Assembly (NCBI GenBank): GCA_905181785.1
Contig: CAJIZC010000029.1
Coordinates: forward strand, 1-50,251
Direction of reading: 5' to 3'
Source of the DNA: an uncultured Candidatus Poseidoniales archaeon
GTDB lineage: Archaea > Thermoplasmatota > Poseidoniia > Poseidoniales > Poseidoniaceae
DNA length: 50,251 nt
Under the pieces are notes generated by a model. The model saw only the letters and a program-made list of their open reading frames with translations. It had not been told where the DNA came from and ran no database searches. Both the position numbers and the translations under genes were made by a program. Below are positions 42,301-46,714 of this stretch, in pieces. How positions within the stretch are numbered: position 1 is the stretch's first letter; each line of letters begins with the position of its first letter.

Positions 42301-44391
42301 ATGCAACCTATTCAGCGTGTGGCGATTGTTGGTGCAGGGAACATGGGTTCCGGCATTGCACAGAAAACGGCTCAGGAAGAATTCGACGTCCAAATGGTGG
42401 ACAGAGAGCAACAATGGGTTGACCGTGGACAAGGCATCATTCGGGATTTTCTTTCCGAAGCCGTGGAGCGGCGGATCTTTTCACCGGCTCAAGTGGATGC
42501 TATTCAAGGAAGAATCACAGGCGTGGTCGGTGTCGAAAACACCGCAGTCGATACCGATTTGGTGATCGAGGCCGTGTTCGAAGACTTCGACATTAAAGCA
42601 GCCGTATTCGCAACCCTTGATGCCGCATGTGGGCCCGAAACCATCCTTGCCTCAAACACCTCGTCGTTGTCGGTTAACGCCCTTGCTGAGGCAACAGGAC
42701 GGGCCGATCGCTTTGTTGGTCTGCACTTCTTTTACCATCCTGCAAAGAATCGTTTGGTTGAGGTAATTCCCGCAGCCTCGTCGAGTCCTGAAACAATTGA
42801 GAAGGTCGTTCAATACTGCAAGATGCTCGGTAAGGTCGTCATCGTGTGCGGGGATCGGCCTGGCTTTGTCGTCAATCGGTTTTTCGTACCGTGGCTCAAT
42901 GAAGCATGCCTTCTTTTGGAAGAGGGCGTCGCTACTGCAGCGCAAATTGACGCTGCTGCGCGCAAAGCATTCCGCATCGGACTTGGTCCATTTGGCTTGA
43001 TGAACCTCACTGGCCCACCCATTGCCTTGCATTCCACTGACTACCTTGCTGAGCAACTCCATACGCCCCGTTACGTTGGGGCTCAAAACCTCCGAGACCT
43101 CATCGAGGCCAACGAACAATGGGATGTTTCGGGCGATGAAACATACACGGAACAACAGTACGCAAGTGTGGCAGAACGCCTGTATGGGGTTGTCTTCGGT
43201 GTCGCAGCACAGATTGTCGAGGAAGGCGTCTGCACAATGGAAGACGTCGATCGAGGAGCCAAGGTTGGTCTTCGATGGGCGCGCGGTCCGTTTGAGATGA
43301 TGAATCGAGTTGGAATTCAAGAAGCCCACAAAATGGCATCAGCATACGCTGACCTCAGCGCAGAAAGCGATCCTCAACGGGCATGGGCTGTTCCTGCCTT
43401 CTTTACCGCCCAAGCCAATGCTGGCGATGCATGGAATTTCTCTTATGTCGACACCACAATCGAAGCTGGAGTTGCCACATTGACCATCAACCGACCTGAG
43501 GCCATGAACGCGCTCAATGAAACCGTCGTCAACCAACTCAATGCAGCGCTTGAAACCGTGAACGCCGATGAATCAGTTCACACCATCGTGCTCGATGGAG
43601 CAGGCAAAGCCTTTGTCGCCGGTGCAGATGTCAAATTCTTCGTCGATAAAATACGAGCTGACGCCATCCCCGATATTGTCACGTTCACAGCCAACGGCCA
43701 TGCGATGCTGGACAAATTAGAATCGTCCTCCAAAACCACCATTGCACTGACCACTGGCCTTGCGCTTGGCGGCGGATTGGAACTTGCCCTTGCTTGCGAT
43801 TACCGCATTGGTACACGCCGCACGCAATTCCGTTTCCCTGAAACTTCAATCGGTATTTACCCCGGATTGGGTGGATCCCAACGGCCGGCAAGAATTTGTG
43901 GGATTCCGGCAGCCCGCTGGTCTGTTCTTGCTGGAAATTTCATGGACGCTCAAACGGGCCATGATTTGGGCCTGTTGACTCATTTGGTCGACGTTGCAGC
44001 CGTTAACGGATGCGTTTCTCAGTTGGCATCTGCAGGTAAACCTGCCAACAAATACCCAGGGGCGCCCGCAAATCCAGCAAGTGCAGTCGCAACATTCGCA
44101 ACTTCGTTTTACAGCGATGCAAACATGGGCGCCATCATGCAAGGAACATGCCCCGAGGGCTTTGACGCTGAAGAGAAAGGCATAGCCCGTCAAATGAAAT
44201 CCCTCGCACGGGCAGCACCGATTGCACTCAACATGGCAAGCAATTTGATCGATGCAACTTCGACCACAACCCTGGCCGTTGGCTTGCAAATGGAACTCGA
44301 CCAGTTGACTGATATTTTCTCAACTGAAGACTCTTTGGAAGGACTCTCCGCGCTCATCGAAGGACGGAAGCCCGGATATCGAAACGCCTGA
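42301..44391 (+). CDS. Fused 3-hydroxyacyl-CoA dehydrogenase / enoyl-CoA hydratase
   Basis: Catalyses two consecutive steps of fatty-acid beta-oxidation, hydration of enoyl-CoA and NAD-dependent oxidation of the 3-hydroxyacyl-CoA. The N-terminal dehydrogenase (about 1-380) has VAIVGAGNMGSGIA and LHFFYHPAKNRLVEVIPA with the catalytic His. The C-terminal crotonase domain (about 383-696) has GAGKAFVAGADVKFF, ALGGGLELALACDYRI with a catalytic Glu, and PETSIGIYPGLGGSQR with the second. This dehydrogenase-first order is that of archaeal fused enzymes such as Msed_0399, and the reverse of bacterial FadB. ATG 42301 is chosen for Rossmann-fold spacing; a TTG at 42247 overlaps the upstream stop. 696 residues. 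Confidence 0.94.
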   Translation: MQPIQRVAIVGAGNMGSGIAQKTAQEEFDVQMVDREQQWVDRGQGIIRDFLSEAVERRIFSPAQVDAIQGRITGVVGVENTAVDTDLVIEAVFEDFDIKAAVFATLDAACGPETILASNTSSLSVNALAEATGRADRFVGLHFFYHPAKNRLVEVIPAASSSPETIEKVVQYCKMLGKVVIVCGDRPGFVVNRFFVPWLNEACLLLEEGVATAAQIDAAARKAFRIGLGPFGLMNLTGPPIALHSTDYLAEQLHTPRYVGAQNLRDLIEANEQWDVSGDETYTEQQYASVAERLYGVVFGVAAQIVEEGVCTMEDVDRGAKVGLRWARGPFEMMNRVGIQEAHKMASAYADLSAESDPQRAWAVPAFFTAQANAGDAWNFSYVDTTIEAGVATLTINRPEAMNALNETVVNQLNAALETVNADESVHTIVLDGAGKAFVAGADVKFFVDKIRADAIPDIVTFTANGHAMLDKLESSSKTTIALTTGLALGGGLELALACDYRIGTRRTQFRFPETSIGIYPGLGGSQRPARICGIPAARWSVLAGNFMDAQTGHDLGLLTHLVDVAAVNGCVSQLASAGKPANKYPGAPANPASAVATFATSFYSDANMGAIMQGTCPEGFDAEEKGIARQMKSLARAAPIALNMASNLIDATSTTTLAVGLQMELDQLTDIFSTEDSLEGLSALIEGRKPGYRNA

Positions 44392-45270
44392 TTTGGCCTT
44401 TTGTTCCCTTTTTAGTCCGTCTGAAAGGGTGCTTACGCGCATTGATGTTTCGAGATCATTCAACATGGCCAGCACGTACAGAGCTGTGTAATCGGCTGCT
44501 GGACATTCGATCTCAGAACGGACCAATTGAATGCAATAGGTGCCCTTTGTCTCTCGGCATCGCACGCTTGGTACCGCACCAAATACGTTCGGTTCAATGT
44601 GCCAATGCAAACCAGAATCTCCGCGAAGAGCAATAATTCCATCATCAAGAACATGAATACGGTGGGCGTTTGCTTTCAGGGTTTCATGGAGGAACCCAAG
44701 CGCCCTTCGTTCGTTGGCAGGAATGAATGAATCTTGAGATGTATGAATTCTTCGTGCCCTTAATCTCAGATTTAGGGCGTTTTTTATTCCGTAGTAACCA
44801 TGCCAAATTTCGAGGAAAAACCGAGTGGTGTCTTGGTCAATTCGTCCTTCAAGCAAACCGCGATTTTCATACGACACACCACCGCTCTCGTCAATCATCA
44901 TGTAAGGTGTCAAGGCTAGCCACTCCTCTTGAGTCAGCATTGATTCTGGTTTCAACGCCTTCGCTTCCAATTGGTGGACGAGGTTCGCTTCATTATGACC
45001 CATGCAGTGCATCATCAGGCCAACAACCTCATCTGGAAGCGCGACCAGTTCGACGTTTGCTTCCTCATCAGTGTCGATCCCTTCAACCAACGCCTCCATG
45101 TCCAATGCGAACGCTCCACTGTCAACACTTCTCTCACCGGTATCGGCATCGGCAGGCTGCAAATGGGCACTCCACCCTCGAGCCAGTTTGAGCCGGCGTG
45201 ACCGAGGCGGGGCCCATGCAAGGCACACCACGCAATTATGCGCAACGCACTCTGTGTATGGGACGGGCAT
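44320..45270 (-). CDS. Unrecognised protein of the E1-JAMM cassette
   Basis: 316 residues from ATG 45270 (MPVPYTECV), which follows the strong site AGGTGATTCAA; a GTG at 45279 directly after the upstream stop is possible. No family recognised. Near the N-terminus is a Cys cluster C8-x4-C13-x2-C16. Near the C-terminus lie LHWHIEPNVFGAVPSVRC and KGTYCIQLVRSEIEC, a His/Pro/Asn then Cys order that loosely recalls the HPN...C core of E2-like proteins; I regard that as weak. The last gene of a four-gene unit with E1-like and JAMM genes, so a role as substrate, carrier or partner of that system is inferred. Its 3' end overlaps the convergent beta-oxidation gene by 72 bases. Confidence 0.7.
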   Translation of the reverse strand: MPVPYTECVAHNCVVCLAWAPPRSRRLKLARGWSAHLQPADADTGERSVDSGAFALDMEALVEGIDTDEEANVELVALPDEVVGLMMHCMGHNEANLVHQLEAKALKPESMLTQEEWLALTPYMMIDESGGVSYENRGLLEGRIDQDTTRFFLEIWHGYYGIKNALNLRLRARRIHTSQDSFIPANERRALGFLHETLKANAHRIHVLDDGIIALRGDSGLHWHIEPNVFGAVPSVRCRETKGTYCIQLVRSEIECPAADYTALYVLAMLNDLETSMRVSTLSDGLKREQKAKSGVSISGLPSFDERGESFQRVFS

Positions 45271-45279
45271 TTGAATCAC

Positions 45280-45519
45280 CTAAGCATGTTCGTTTTGAAG
45301 TTCAATCATTCGATCAATCAGCACTTTGAAATCGAGCACTTCATTTGTTTCATGAGCGAATTCTATTCGGTTCCTGACCGCATCGAGAAATGCTTCTTCA
45401 GGCGCCTCACCAAGCAGCTCTTCAACCACATCAGAAAGGCTCCGACCCATGCCGAGGGCAACTGCGATTCGTGCCTTTCGACATTCTTCATCGTCCTTTG
45501 GCGTTCTTACGTTGGTCAT
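45280..45519 (-). CDS. Small helical protein of the E1-JAMM cassette
   Basis: 79 residues, start ATG 45519 overlapping the stop of the JAMM gene (ATGA) and preceded by GAGGTGAGAAC. It is predicted all-helical and acidic, with RKARIAVALGMGRSL followed by SDVVEELLGEAPEEAFLDAV, and ends QNEHA. There is no C-terminal Gly-Gly and no beta-grasp pattern, so it is not an obvious ubiquitin-like modifier. It could be a small adaptor or a target of the system. Function unknown. Confidence 0.7.
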   Translation of the reverse strand: MTNVRTPKDDEECRKARIAVALGMGRSLSDVVEELLGEAPEEAFLDAVRNRIEFAHETNEVLDFKVLIDRMIELQNEHA

Positions 45520-46073
45520 GTTCTCACCTCGTCGAGCGTTGCATGCCCAAACTGTTCGTAGAACGTCGACCATGGCGTAAGGGCTTCATCGGTCCACTGG
45601 CTCAAAGGGCCATCTTTCATGAGGCGTCGCTCGGGGAGCTCTTCGGTTGTCAAACTTTGATTCAAAGCCTGCTTGATCCCGGGTGCTCCAAGCACCAAGG
45701 CTCGTGAGACAATGCTTGCACCATTGGCAAGGCTGTTGGTGTCCGTACCGCTCCAATACGCATCAAAGCCTGGATGCGTGTGGGTCCAGACCTTGAATGG
45801 TGCAGCGCAACCAATCGGCGGTGAAAGCGCAACCCGACCCGGACTGCCCCAATCAATGGAGACGCTGTCCTCAGCGTCGATCAAGACAGAGGTCTCGAGA
45901 CCTGCGAGGTATGAAAACGCGTACACGACATCCCATCGTCCCATGAGCGCTGCGTTGGATTGAACCTCGAGCAGCCTCTCGTTGTCCACTTGCCTTGCTT
46001 CAGCCATAACGCACAGGCCTTCCCAATCAGCATCGCTTAACCCGAGTTGGTCTAATTCTGGGAGGAAAATCAA
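45516..46073 (-). CDS. JAMM/MPN+ domain isopeptidase-like metalloprotease
   Basis: 185 residues. The zinc motif is complete: His98-Thr-His100-Pro, seven residues, Ser108, two residues, Asp111 (HTHPGFDAYWSGTD). Spacing and wording match Rpn11 (HSHPGF...SGVD). Glu60 in LETSV is a candidate for the catalytic Glu. JAMM enzymes cut isopeptide bonds of ubiquitin-like conjugates or process modifier precursors. The start is a TTG at 46073 that overlaps the stop of the E1-like gene, with GAGGTGA four bases ahead; the next ATG would remove part of the N-terminal helix. The open frame upstream to 46250 lies in the E1-like gene and is rejected. Confidence 0.88.
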   Translation of the reverse strand: MIFLPELDQLGLSDADWEGLCVMAEARQVDNERLLEVQSNAALMGRWDVVYAFSYLAGLETSVLIDAEDSVSIDWGSPGRVALSPPIGCAAPFKVWTHTHPGFDAYWSGTDTNSLANGASIVSRALVLGAPGIKQALNQSLTTEELPERRLMKDGPLSQWTDEALTPWSTFYEQFGHATLDEVRT

Positions 46074-46714
46074 GCACTCACCTCGGAAACAGCAGGGAAA
46101 TTGAACGCTCCGTAGGTGAGTGAACCCATGGCCTGGACTGGAGGTTGGTGACCTCTTAGATGTTGAACAATCCACTGTGCGCCCAAAGCGGCAGCCACAG
46201 CGAATCCAAATTCGAGGTTTCCATCCTCGAGGGCGCCCGGGTGTTGGCAACTCATTGGTTCGTGATCGGGCGTCATGTGATTGACCAAAGCCTGTTGAGA
46301 TTCAGAACTCAACATCACGTAGCCATCGCCGCCGCAACGAAGGTCGAGCCAAGGGACATCAAGGGCGTGAACAAGCCGACGTGGCTCCGGTCGGTCGACG
46401 CAAACAATCACCATGTCATACCCTGCCAATTGACTTGCTTGTCGCAAATTCTCAGCTTGTGCACTGAGGATCACTTCGCTGGTTTCATCGCTCATCCTCG
46501 TGGCGAGCGCTTCGACCTTTTTCATGCCTAAATCCCCTTCCGTGTAGCGTTGATGGCCGAGGTTGCCTGCTTCAACAACATCGTCATCCATCAGCGTAAG
46601 TTGAGCCTTCATGCCCAGCCTTCGCAAGGCGGGAACCAACAGTTCAATCAAATTTGTACCGATGCCGCCTGCACCGATGATGGCGAGTTTTGGGGGTGCC
46701 TCTATAGTGTTCAC
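46070..46714 (-). CDS. E1/ThiF-like adenylating enzyme
   Basis: 214 residues of the MoeB/ThiF/E1 adenylation family, which activate the C-terminus of a ubiquitin-like protein with ATP. The nucleotide loop is GAGGIG (14-19), then DDDVVEAGNLGHQRY with the conserved Asp and Asn51, LGMKKVEALA with the ATP-contacting Lys, and VCVDRPE with Asp107. In MoeB the segment reads NLQRQ; here the Arg is replaced by His54 with Arg56 shortly after, which may alter ATP contacts. A candidate thiolating Cys is Cys156 in MSCQHPGA. The two CxxC zinc pairs of MoeB/UbaA are missing. The start is a GTG at 46714 with no ribosome binding site but TATA-like boxes about 25-35 bases ahead, so the mRNA may be leaderless. 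Followed by a JAMM gene with overlap. Confidence 0.87.
   Translation of the reverse strand: MNTIEAPPKLAIIGAGGIGTNLIELLVPALRRLGMKAQLTLMDDDVVEAGNLGHQRYTEGDLGMKKVEALATRMSDETSEVILSAQAENLRQASQLAGYDMVIVCVDRPEPRRLVHALDVPWLDLRCGGDGYVMLSSESQQALVNHMTPDHEPMSCQHPGALEDGNLEFGFAVAAALGAQWIVQHLRGHQPPVQAMGSLTYGAFNFPAVSEVSA

Follow-up and report, generated by a model that had tools for sequence, protein, structure and literature searches.

Gene sets that join ubiquitin-like (Ubl) proteins to an E1-type activating enzyme and a JAB-type (JAMM) isopeptidase have been described from bacteria. In the passages covered of Iyer, Burroughs and Aravind 2006 (PMC1779556), the type 6e operons encode one to three Ubl repeats, an E1 and a JAB protein and are reported from proteobacteria, cyanobacteria and some actinobacteria; their E1-like protein is usually fused to JAB, and an E2/RWD-like domain is sometimes fused to the Ubl. 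The PRTRC set of plasmids combines ThiF, JAB, Prok-E2_D, Prok_Ub and ParB, and E1 and JAB proteins are also found in the CBASS Cap2-Cap3 and Bil systems. Here we describe an E1-JAMM cassette from Candidatus Poseidoniales (Marine Group II), archaea that are very common in the ocean. It lies in a 50,251-nt stretch of DNA, hereafter the window (contig CAJIZC010000029.1 of assembly GCA_905181785.1, our contig C29), which belongs to a 1.66-Mb genome that is 79.75% complete. We consider it likely that this cassette provides the E1, the JAMM and two accessory proteins of a reversible Ubl protein-modification system.

Four open reading frames on the minus strand, from position 46714 down to 44320, form the cassette. 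They had been proposed from the letters of the window alone (the sequence-only reading), and all four are present at these coordinates. They are listed below with the sites discussed in the text, CI-GD being our own name, after a conserved Cys-Ile and Gly-Asp, for the family to which the C-terminal part of p316 belongs.

46070 to 46714, minus strand: E1/ThiF-like adenylating enzyme, 214 amino acids, GTG start, PF00899
45516 to 46073, minus strand: JAMM/JAB isopeptidase, 185 amino acids, TTG start, 4-base overlap with the E1 gene
45280 to 45519, minus strand: p79, small conserved protein, 79 amino acids, ATG start, 4-base overlap with the JAMM gene
44320 to 45270, minus strand: p316, 316 amino acids, ATG start, N-terminal Cys-rich stretch and C-terminal CI-GD domain, candidate Ubl carrier
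46247 to 46249, minus strand: codon of Cys156 of the E1 (SCQ motif), candidate thioester- or acyl-carrying Cys by its invariance (16 of 16 relatives)
45741 to 45782, minus strand: JAMM motif HTHPGFDAYWSGTD (HxHx7SxxD), with H98, H100, S108 and D111 invariant in 17 of 17 relatives and E60 upstream
44371 to 44718, minus strand: CI-GD domain of p316, about residues 185-300, from family alignments and a profile made without p316
44533 to 44535, minus strand: codon of Cys246 of p316, the invariant Cys of the CI-GD domain

The proposed junctions were likewise reproduced: the E1 and JAMM genes overlap by TTGA, the JAMM and p79 genes overlap by ATGA, and nine bases separate p79 from p316. The internal starts are preceded by GAGGTGA (JAMM), GAGGTGA (p79) and AGGTGA (p316).

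The first three genes recur together well beyond the window. We kept 80 loci from named records out of 119 confirmed relatives, with JAMM identities to the window of 38-86%. Most of these records are titled Candidatus Poseidoniales, Poseidoniaceae, Poseidonia or Euryarchaeota, with one Thermoplasmatota and one Rhodobiaceae, and the Marine Group II chromosome CM001443.1 is among them. The E1 gene directly precedes the JAMM gene in 79 of the 80 loci, the remaining locus ending at a contig edge, and p79 directly follows the JAMM gene in 78, the other two lying at contig ends. As in coupled genes, the E1 gene closes with ATGA, TTGA or GTGA in 78 of 79 loci, and the JAMM gene does so in 77 of 78; these counts were read from the gene-end bases and not from start codons one by one. 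In six of 40 loci examined, E1 and JAMM are fused in one frame. Because the trio recurs in 80 loci, E1-JAMM-p79 is a coupled unit and more than a chance neighbourhood. The sequence-only reading had named E1 and JAMM genes standing apart in relatives as evidence against it, and they were found adjacent in all 79 loci where the contig permitted. Its four-gene cassette, by contrast, holds for this core but not for the fourth gene, which is variable: a p316-type domain was found within 3 kb downstream in 11 of the 80 loci, or in 17 with a looser group included, six of which (L217-L222) rest solely on that group and were unsupported by a leave-out check. The p79 protein matched nothing in the Pfam, NCBIfam, PADLOC or PHROG scans and was judged mostly helical by eye only. 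The contig titled as a Rhodobiaceae bacterium metagenome-assembled genome (L193) has the cassette with 53% JAMM identity and is probably a misbinned Poseidoniales contig.

The adenylating enzyme was correctly recognised from the letters, with a match to PF00899 above the cut-off (E 2.3e-19). Its top NCBIfam model is PRTRC_ThiF, at 61 bits and under the cut-off of 144.75, and the window protein also stays under all listed ThiF, MoeB and UbaA cut-offs of NCBIfam. All 16 aligned cassette E1s match PRTRC_ThiF and two ThiF models at E 1e-3 or better. In these relatives the residues GxGGI, D43, D45, Q55, K66, D107 and C156 are invariant, and the last Gly of the GxGGxG nucleotide-binding loop is kept in at least 90% of rows. 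Both expected peculiarities, a His at position 54 and missing CxxC zinc pairs, were seen, His54 being nearly but not fully invariant (at least 90% of the 16 rows). A midpoint-rooted tree with 21 rows separates the 16 cassette E1s from four PRTRC ThiFs and from the ThiF-rhodanese protein of the window's genome with a support of 94/94, just below the starred level; 11 of its 18 inner branches are drawn open. A grouping with thiamine or molybdopterin enzymes beside a matching ThiS/MoaD gene, which had been named beforehand as a reason to abandon the proposal, was not what we observed.

The PRTRC proteins are the closest E1 sequences that we found outside this set, and both systems have an E1, a JAB protein and a small ubiquitin-like gene. 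The window E1 has matches in 134 records of the plasmid collection, and 24 of the 25 places listed are named PRTRC ThiF, with 28-34% identity. The two systems differ in gene order and in that the Poseidoniales set is chromosomal, and the Pfam scan gave no Prok_Ub or Prok-E2_D match in the cassette proteins and Ubls scanned. These E1 matches support the view that this is an archaeal E1-JAMM cassette with partners of unassigned family, kin to PRTRC-type and other ThiF-JAB sets. Its likely use is conjugation.

The JAMM protease is intact, as had been claimed from its motif HTHPGFDAYWSGTD, and the metal-site residues E60, H98, H100, S108 and D111 are invariant in all 17 aligned relatives. Its match to Pfam Prok-JAB is below threshold (E 0.03), and nine of the 17 aligned proteins match that model at E 0.1. 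Against the PDB, the JAMM profile found deubiquitinases, namely AMSH-LP, STAMBP, sst2, Caldiarchaeum Rpn11 and 26S Rpn11, with a best E of 0.0017. No JAMM relative was found in the virus collection.

A modifier had been missing from the cassette as first read, and a genome search for Ubl proteins with Gly-Gly ends had been suggested. Our search found no Ubl in the window itself, but the same genome encodes a tandem Ubl pair on another contig (G000:C6:16663-17079, with domain E-values of 1.7e-22 and 2.0e-23), and in relatives the Ubl stands beside the E1 or is fused to it. The own-genome frame ends PQLVGGAQEASC, and both of its domains have Gly-Gly. A Ubl domain was found in 14 of the 40 loci in which E1-JAMM fusions were counted: just before the E1 gene in eight, where relatives have a separate protein of 72-105 amino acids, as two copies fused to the N-terminus of the E1 in three (L071-L073), and downstream in three. 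The domain is about 69 residues long and typically ends like VPGLVGG, followed by one or more extra residues. Of 74 non-identical domains, 67 have Gly-Gly close to their end, and extra residues follow it in all 17 unfused Gly-Gly-type genes whose ends were listed; the domains of L144 (G022:C2), L080, L081 and L090 end in Ala-Gly. A profile of 15 domains detected the family in 92 of the order's 193 genomes. Phylum-wide, 65 of 389 genomes had it, all within the window's order. Arrays of two to four domains occur in genera 1-3, and in the genes compared, repeats of the same gene share 32-83% identity.

By profile and by predicted structure, these domains match ubiquitin best. When the Ubl profile was compared with the PDB, the best 22 of the 60 rows listed were all ubiquitin or polyubiquitin, with the final Gly aligned to Gly76. 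The E-values of polyubiquitin are inflated because its repeats add up, and single ubiquitins scored between E 0.055 and 0.82, the best being an engineered variant. In a separate profile comparison, ubiquitin outscored 99 of 100 shuffles. Structure prediction was run on the Ubl of a relative (L228) rather than on the own-genome one; the AlphaFold model (pLDDT 86.5) shows the order strand-strand-helix-strand-strand-helix-strand, which is that of ubiquitin, and its top Foldseek match is ubiquitin (probability 0.99, TM 0.51 by query length, E 5.5e-3). The best 50 of its 447 Foldseek matches are mostly ubiquitin, SUMO, ISG15, FAT10, NEDD8 and their kin, with a few others such as Bqt4 and Chp1-Tas3, and none of these 50 is named ThiS or MoaD. 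Among the Ubls scanned against Pfam, no model was matched above its cut-off, the nearest ubiquitin-like one being Rad60-SLD at E 0.011 for one Ubl.

The fourth protein had been left unrecognised. Its fold is still unmatched, but its C-terminal part could be assigned to the Cys-containing CI-GD family: a leave-out profile built without p316 rows recovered residues 179-292 of the 319-amino-acid frame at E 3.7e-14. We found no match of weight for p316 in Pfam, NCBIfam, PADLOC or PHROGs (one Pfam line stands at E 0.1), and no CI-GD protein scanned matched a Pfam model above cut-off. Since neither family has such a match, Ubl and CI-GD genes likely stay "hypothetical" in annotation that relies on Pfam. 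Strong relatives of the whole p316 (E <1e-14) occur only in the window's genus g1, the next best being at E 8.7e-12 in g5. Within the order, 104 of the 193 genomes carry the CI-GD domain, mostly with two to three matches each and in frames of mostly about 210 to 850 amino acids; the window's genome has p316 and a paralogue at G000:C5:89314-89700. The column of Cys246 holds Cys in 13 of 13 and 21 of 21 alignment rows, although the invariance in the 21-row alignment is partly one of choice because its rows were picked with a motif allowing C or S. In 70 profile-found sequences, which may contain members of the looser group of about 340 amino acids, one Cys and one Asp are identical wherever the column is filled. 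Several members also have N-terminal CxxC pairs.

One locus (L148) encodes a 360-amino-acid protein made of a Ubl and a CI-GD domain, followed by ThiF, JAMM and a 79-amino-acid gene. A profile built without this protein finds its CI-GD domain at E 3.2e-4, or 1.5e-3 with the p316 rows also removed, and because of this score we regard the link as sound but not strong. The leave-out check did not recover the proteins of about 340 amino acids in L069, L070 and L075 (E 0.019-0.16). Its CI-GD profile matched at E <0.01 a frame near a Ubl gene in L143 (G181:C27, 5745-6683) and another just before the E1-JAMM pair in L088 (144-1331). In the virus collection no relative of a CI-GD protein of L091 was found. 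In L058 (G022:C6) a p316 relative is split into two frames, for which real decay and assembly error are indistinguishable; genome G022 has a second E1-JAMM-p79 set on contig C7.

The three families occur together across the order. At presence cut-offs of 0.001 (JAMM), 0.01 (Ubl) and 0.001 (CI-GD), the 193 genomes contain JAMM in 95, Ubl in 92 and CI-GD in 104 cases; all three are present in 85 genomes and none in another 85. The Fisher P for JAMM and Ubl is 2e-36, and this test, like the other Fisher tests, the shared flanks and the counts reported here, is uncorrected for kinship. This joint presence and absence links JAMM, Ubl and CI-GD as parts of one system. No genome of genus g4 was positive for JAMM, Ubl or CI-GD, with at least eight g4 genomes negative in each search, which suggests that this genus lost the whole system.

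We regard the Poseidoniales system as a variant of the prokaryotic Ubl-E1-JAB operons already described, because its layout is like that of the bacterial multi-Ubl/E1-JAB operons. Like type 6e, it has Ubl repeats, E1, JAMM and a fusion of a Ubl to a further domain. Type 6e is bacterial, whereas this set is archaeal, has a Ubl without an above-cut-off Pfam match and includes p79 as a constant third gene; an E2 likeness of its CI-GD proteins found no support in our tests. Conjugation without a canonical E2 has a precedent in the SAMP system, whose SAMPs are single proteins resembling ThiS/MoaD and whose UbaA has a further role in sulfur transfer. An archaeal Ubl and a JAMM protease are shared with the SAMP/UbaA/HvJAMM1 system of Haloferax, as it appears in the covered part of PMC4443979; unlike that system, the Poseidoniales one has a separate E1 with its own tandem Ubl, and its E1 and JAMM genes are coupled. 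The covered part of PMC4895103 reports that the TATA-binding protein of Haloferax is Ubl-modified. The ubiquitin operon of Caldiarchaeum subterraneum is similar in its archaeal ubiquitin, E1-like protein and precursor-processing JAMM-type deubiquitinase (PMC5654768, PMC6043591, each in the passages covered) but also has E2-like and small-RING proteins, none of which was recognised in the Poseidoniales system.

Sequences and models show the Ubl fold, its Gly-Gly ends with trailing residues, the complete E1 and JAMM motifs, the coupling and fusions of the genes and their joint occurrence. From these observations we infer how the system may work, including each chemical step, what p79 and p316 do, and the substrates. 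The JAMM would first cut the tandem Ubl precursor and its C-terminal tail after Gly-Gly, yielding single Ubls. The E1 would then adenylate the C-terminal Gly of the Ubl with ATP and may hold the Ubl on Cys156. Next, the Ubl could pass to the invariant Cys of a CI-GD protein (p316 or the paralogue at G000:C5:89314-89700) acting as transfer enzyme, and it would be joined to lysines of substrates, possibly in the transcription machinery. Finally, the JAMM would take the Ubl off again. The roles given to the JAMM in maturation and removal and to the E1 in activation are suggested by their intact motifs and coupled genes, and p79 is presumably a constant partner of one of the two. A more ambitious version is that Poseidoniales possess a full pathway of the ubiquitin type with an evolutionary history separate from the eukaryote-like one. 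Its precursor genes would resemble polyubiquitin, its E1 would be minimal and its deconjugase would be the coupled JAMM, while CI-GD proteins would form a new, non-UBC class of Cys transfer enzymes and the substrates would lie in the transcription apparatus. We hold this version, taken with all its parts, to be doubtful. Under it, those CI-GD members that have a zinc ribbon at the N-terminus could combine the roles of E2 and E3.

Several results weigh against a Ubl modification system of this kind. One or two of the three families were found without the others in 23 of the 193 genomes, which gaps in metagenome-assembled genomes could explain. In the genus-1 genomes looked at, the Ubl gene is distant from the chromosomal cassette, and in the present genome it lies outside the window. 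Seven of the 74 Ubl domains have no Gly-Gly near their end, one of 100 shuffled ubiquitins equalled the score of ubiquitin against the Ubl profile, and no Foldseek match of the L228 Ubl reaches E 0.001. For p316, the AlphaFold model is of low confidence (pLDDT 43.8; order helix, strands, Cys246, helix). A sequence search of the PDB did not support an E2 identity of p316, and the 50 Foldseek matches listed for its model, each with E >0.7, include no protein named E2. Profile comparison of CI-GD with four Prok-E2_D proteins gave a probability of 0.3%, and comparison with two E2 sequences gave 0.2-0.3%. In the latter case the alignment falls on the E2 Cys in register, which is a lead at most because five of 60 shuffles scored as well. 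CI-GD proteins may nonetheless be the transfer enzymes, as suggested by the invariant Cys, the one fusion of modest score and the co-occurrence.

The most probable alternative concerns this transfer step. The p316-type and other CI-GD proteins could be substrates, receptors or regulators, for example transcription-related zinc proteins, with the E1 acting alone or with p79. We consider this a serious possibility, and it is compatible with precursor cleavage, Ubl activation and Ubl removal as set out above. It accommodates the four tests without E2 similarity, the N-terminal CxxC pairs, the TFIIB-type zinc-ribbon genes near some cassettes and the fact that the p316-type gene is usually not beside the cassette. 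It accounts less readily for the single Cys kept throughout the 70 profile-found sequences and for the fusion of the domain to a Ubl directly before E1 and JAMM in L148.

In genera 1-3 the flanks of the cassette are largely constant on the chromosome. In 10 of 15 loci, including that of the present genome (L129, G000:C6), the gene after the Ubl gene belongs to the rpoP cluster of small proteins; 20 loci were surveyed, and five showing no Ubl, its frame probably missed by the gene caller, were left out. In the window's genome this small gene matches the model of the RNA polymerase 7-kDa subunit (Rpb12-like, PF03604, E 1.5e-6). Most of the ten loci also have a clamp-loader-like AAA gene after it. 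TFIIB-type zinc-ribbon proteins (PF08271) are encoded near the cassette, above cut-off in L096 and below it in L081 (E 1.2e-6) and L071 (E 6.8e-4). Members of the TFIIB-like cluster also lie near the cassette in L080, L083, L084, L087, L088 and L090, the neighbour in L087 having no PF08271 match. From these rpoP- and TFIIB-type neighbours we guess that transcription may be a target of the Ubl. In L071, L091 and L094 a neighbouring gene clusters with phage-type single-subunit RNA polymerase, and the L091 copy, which was tested, matches it. A Ubl/CI-GD/E1/JAMM set adjoins the polymerase-cluster gene there (G124:C4, G130:C20 and G176:C6, respectively); on its contig C17, genome G130 carries an ordinary E1-JAMM-p79 set as well. 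These polymerase-adjoining sets may belong to a virus or mobile element with its own copy, or to misbinned contigs. Two proteasome subunits are encoded in the window's genome.

The polymerase-adjoining copies, together with the presence of the system in about half of the genomes, could point to anti-virus defence akin to the CBASS Cap2-Cap3, Bil or 6A-MBL operons, the Ubl being attached to virus or host proteins on infection. With CBASS and Bil the cassette shares E1 and JAB proteins, and its E1 gives partial matches to the PADLOC E1-E2 and BilD models and to the NCBIfam 6A-MBL cap2_3 model. However, the 214-amino-acid protein covers solely the E1 part of the CBASS- or Bil-type models and has no E2 part, and JAMM, p79 and p316 are without PADLOC match in a scan that covered only some of the neighbours. 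The largely constant chromosomal flanks in genera 1-3 and the Ubl gene beside an rpoP-cluster gene in 10 of 15 loci also argue against defence, which we therefore regard as unlikely.

The sequence-only reading had left conjugation and sulfur transfer side by side; our results favour conjugation, and a sulfur carrier appears quite unlikely. In such a system the E1 would activate the Ubl for thiocarboxylation, as ThiF does ThiS or MoeB does MoaD, and the JAMM would merely mature the precursor. JAMM maturation of sulfur carriers is known elsewhere, the E1 has one invariant Cys, and all 16 aligned E1s match the two ThiF models, though the window E1 stays under their cut-offs. Sulfur transfer is less likely because the genome encodes a separate ThiS/MoaD-type protein, on contig C21 and not beside the cassette E1, as well as a ThiF-rhodanese E1; a classic sulfur or SAMP-type path is thus probably separate from the cassette. 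The cassette E1 gave no rhodanese match in the Pfam scan, and most of the 50 Foldseek matches listed for the Ubl are ubiquitin kin. Two features of the Ubl also speak against sulfur transfer: it is produced in tandem repeats whose Gly-Gly is followed by further residues, so that a protease is needed, and it co-occurs with a Cys domain family. Finally, that the cassette derives from a PRTRC-type plasmid module, diverged and now chromosomal, with a role in plasmid maintenance, as its PRTRC_ThiF and plasmid matches might suggest, is very improbable given the sub-threshold score of the window E1, the largely constant chromosomal flanks and profile comparisons of only 0.3% between the Ubl and two PRTRC protein C sequences, which leaves an identity with that protein unsupported, and between CI-GD and the four Prok-E2_D proteins.

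Among the literature matches listed for Poseidoniales, Marine Group II or Thermoplasmatota with ubiquitin, the system is not described, judging by titles and the start of abstracts, and no paper was found that pairs PRTRC with ubiquitin-like proteins. For one single-cell genome of Marine Group II, Grau-Bove and co-workers (PMC4327156) report genes for UCH and RING proteins, and the passages covered of that paper contain no description of a Poseidoniales Ubl-E1-JAMM system. If the proposed modification system is real, a widespread order of ocean archaea would have its own reversible Ubl tagging with modifiers encoded in tandem, a feature most familiar from eukaryotes. The system would then offer a small, order-specific case for how ubiquitin pathways arise and for what archaea tag, and a case for whether a Cys domain other than UBC can carry a modifier.

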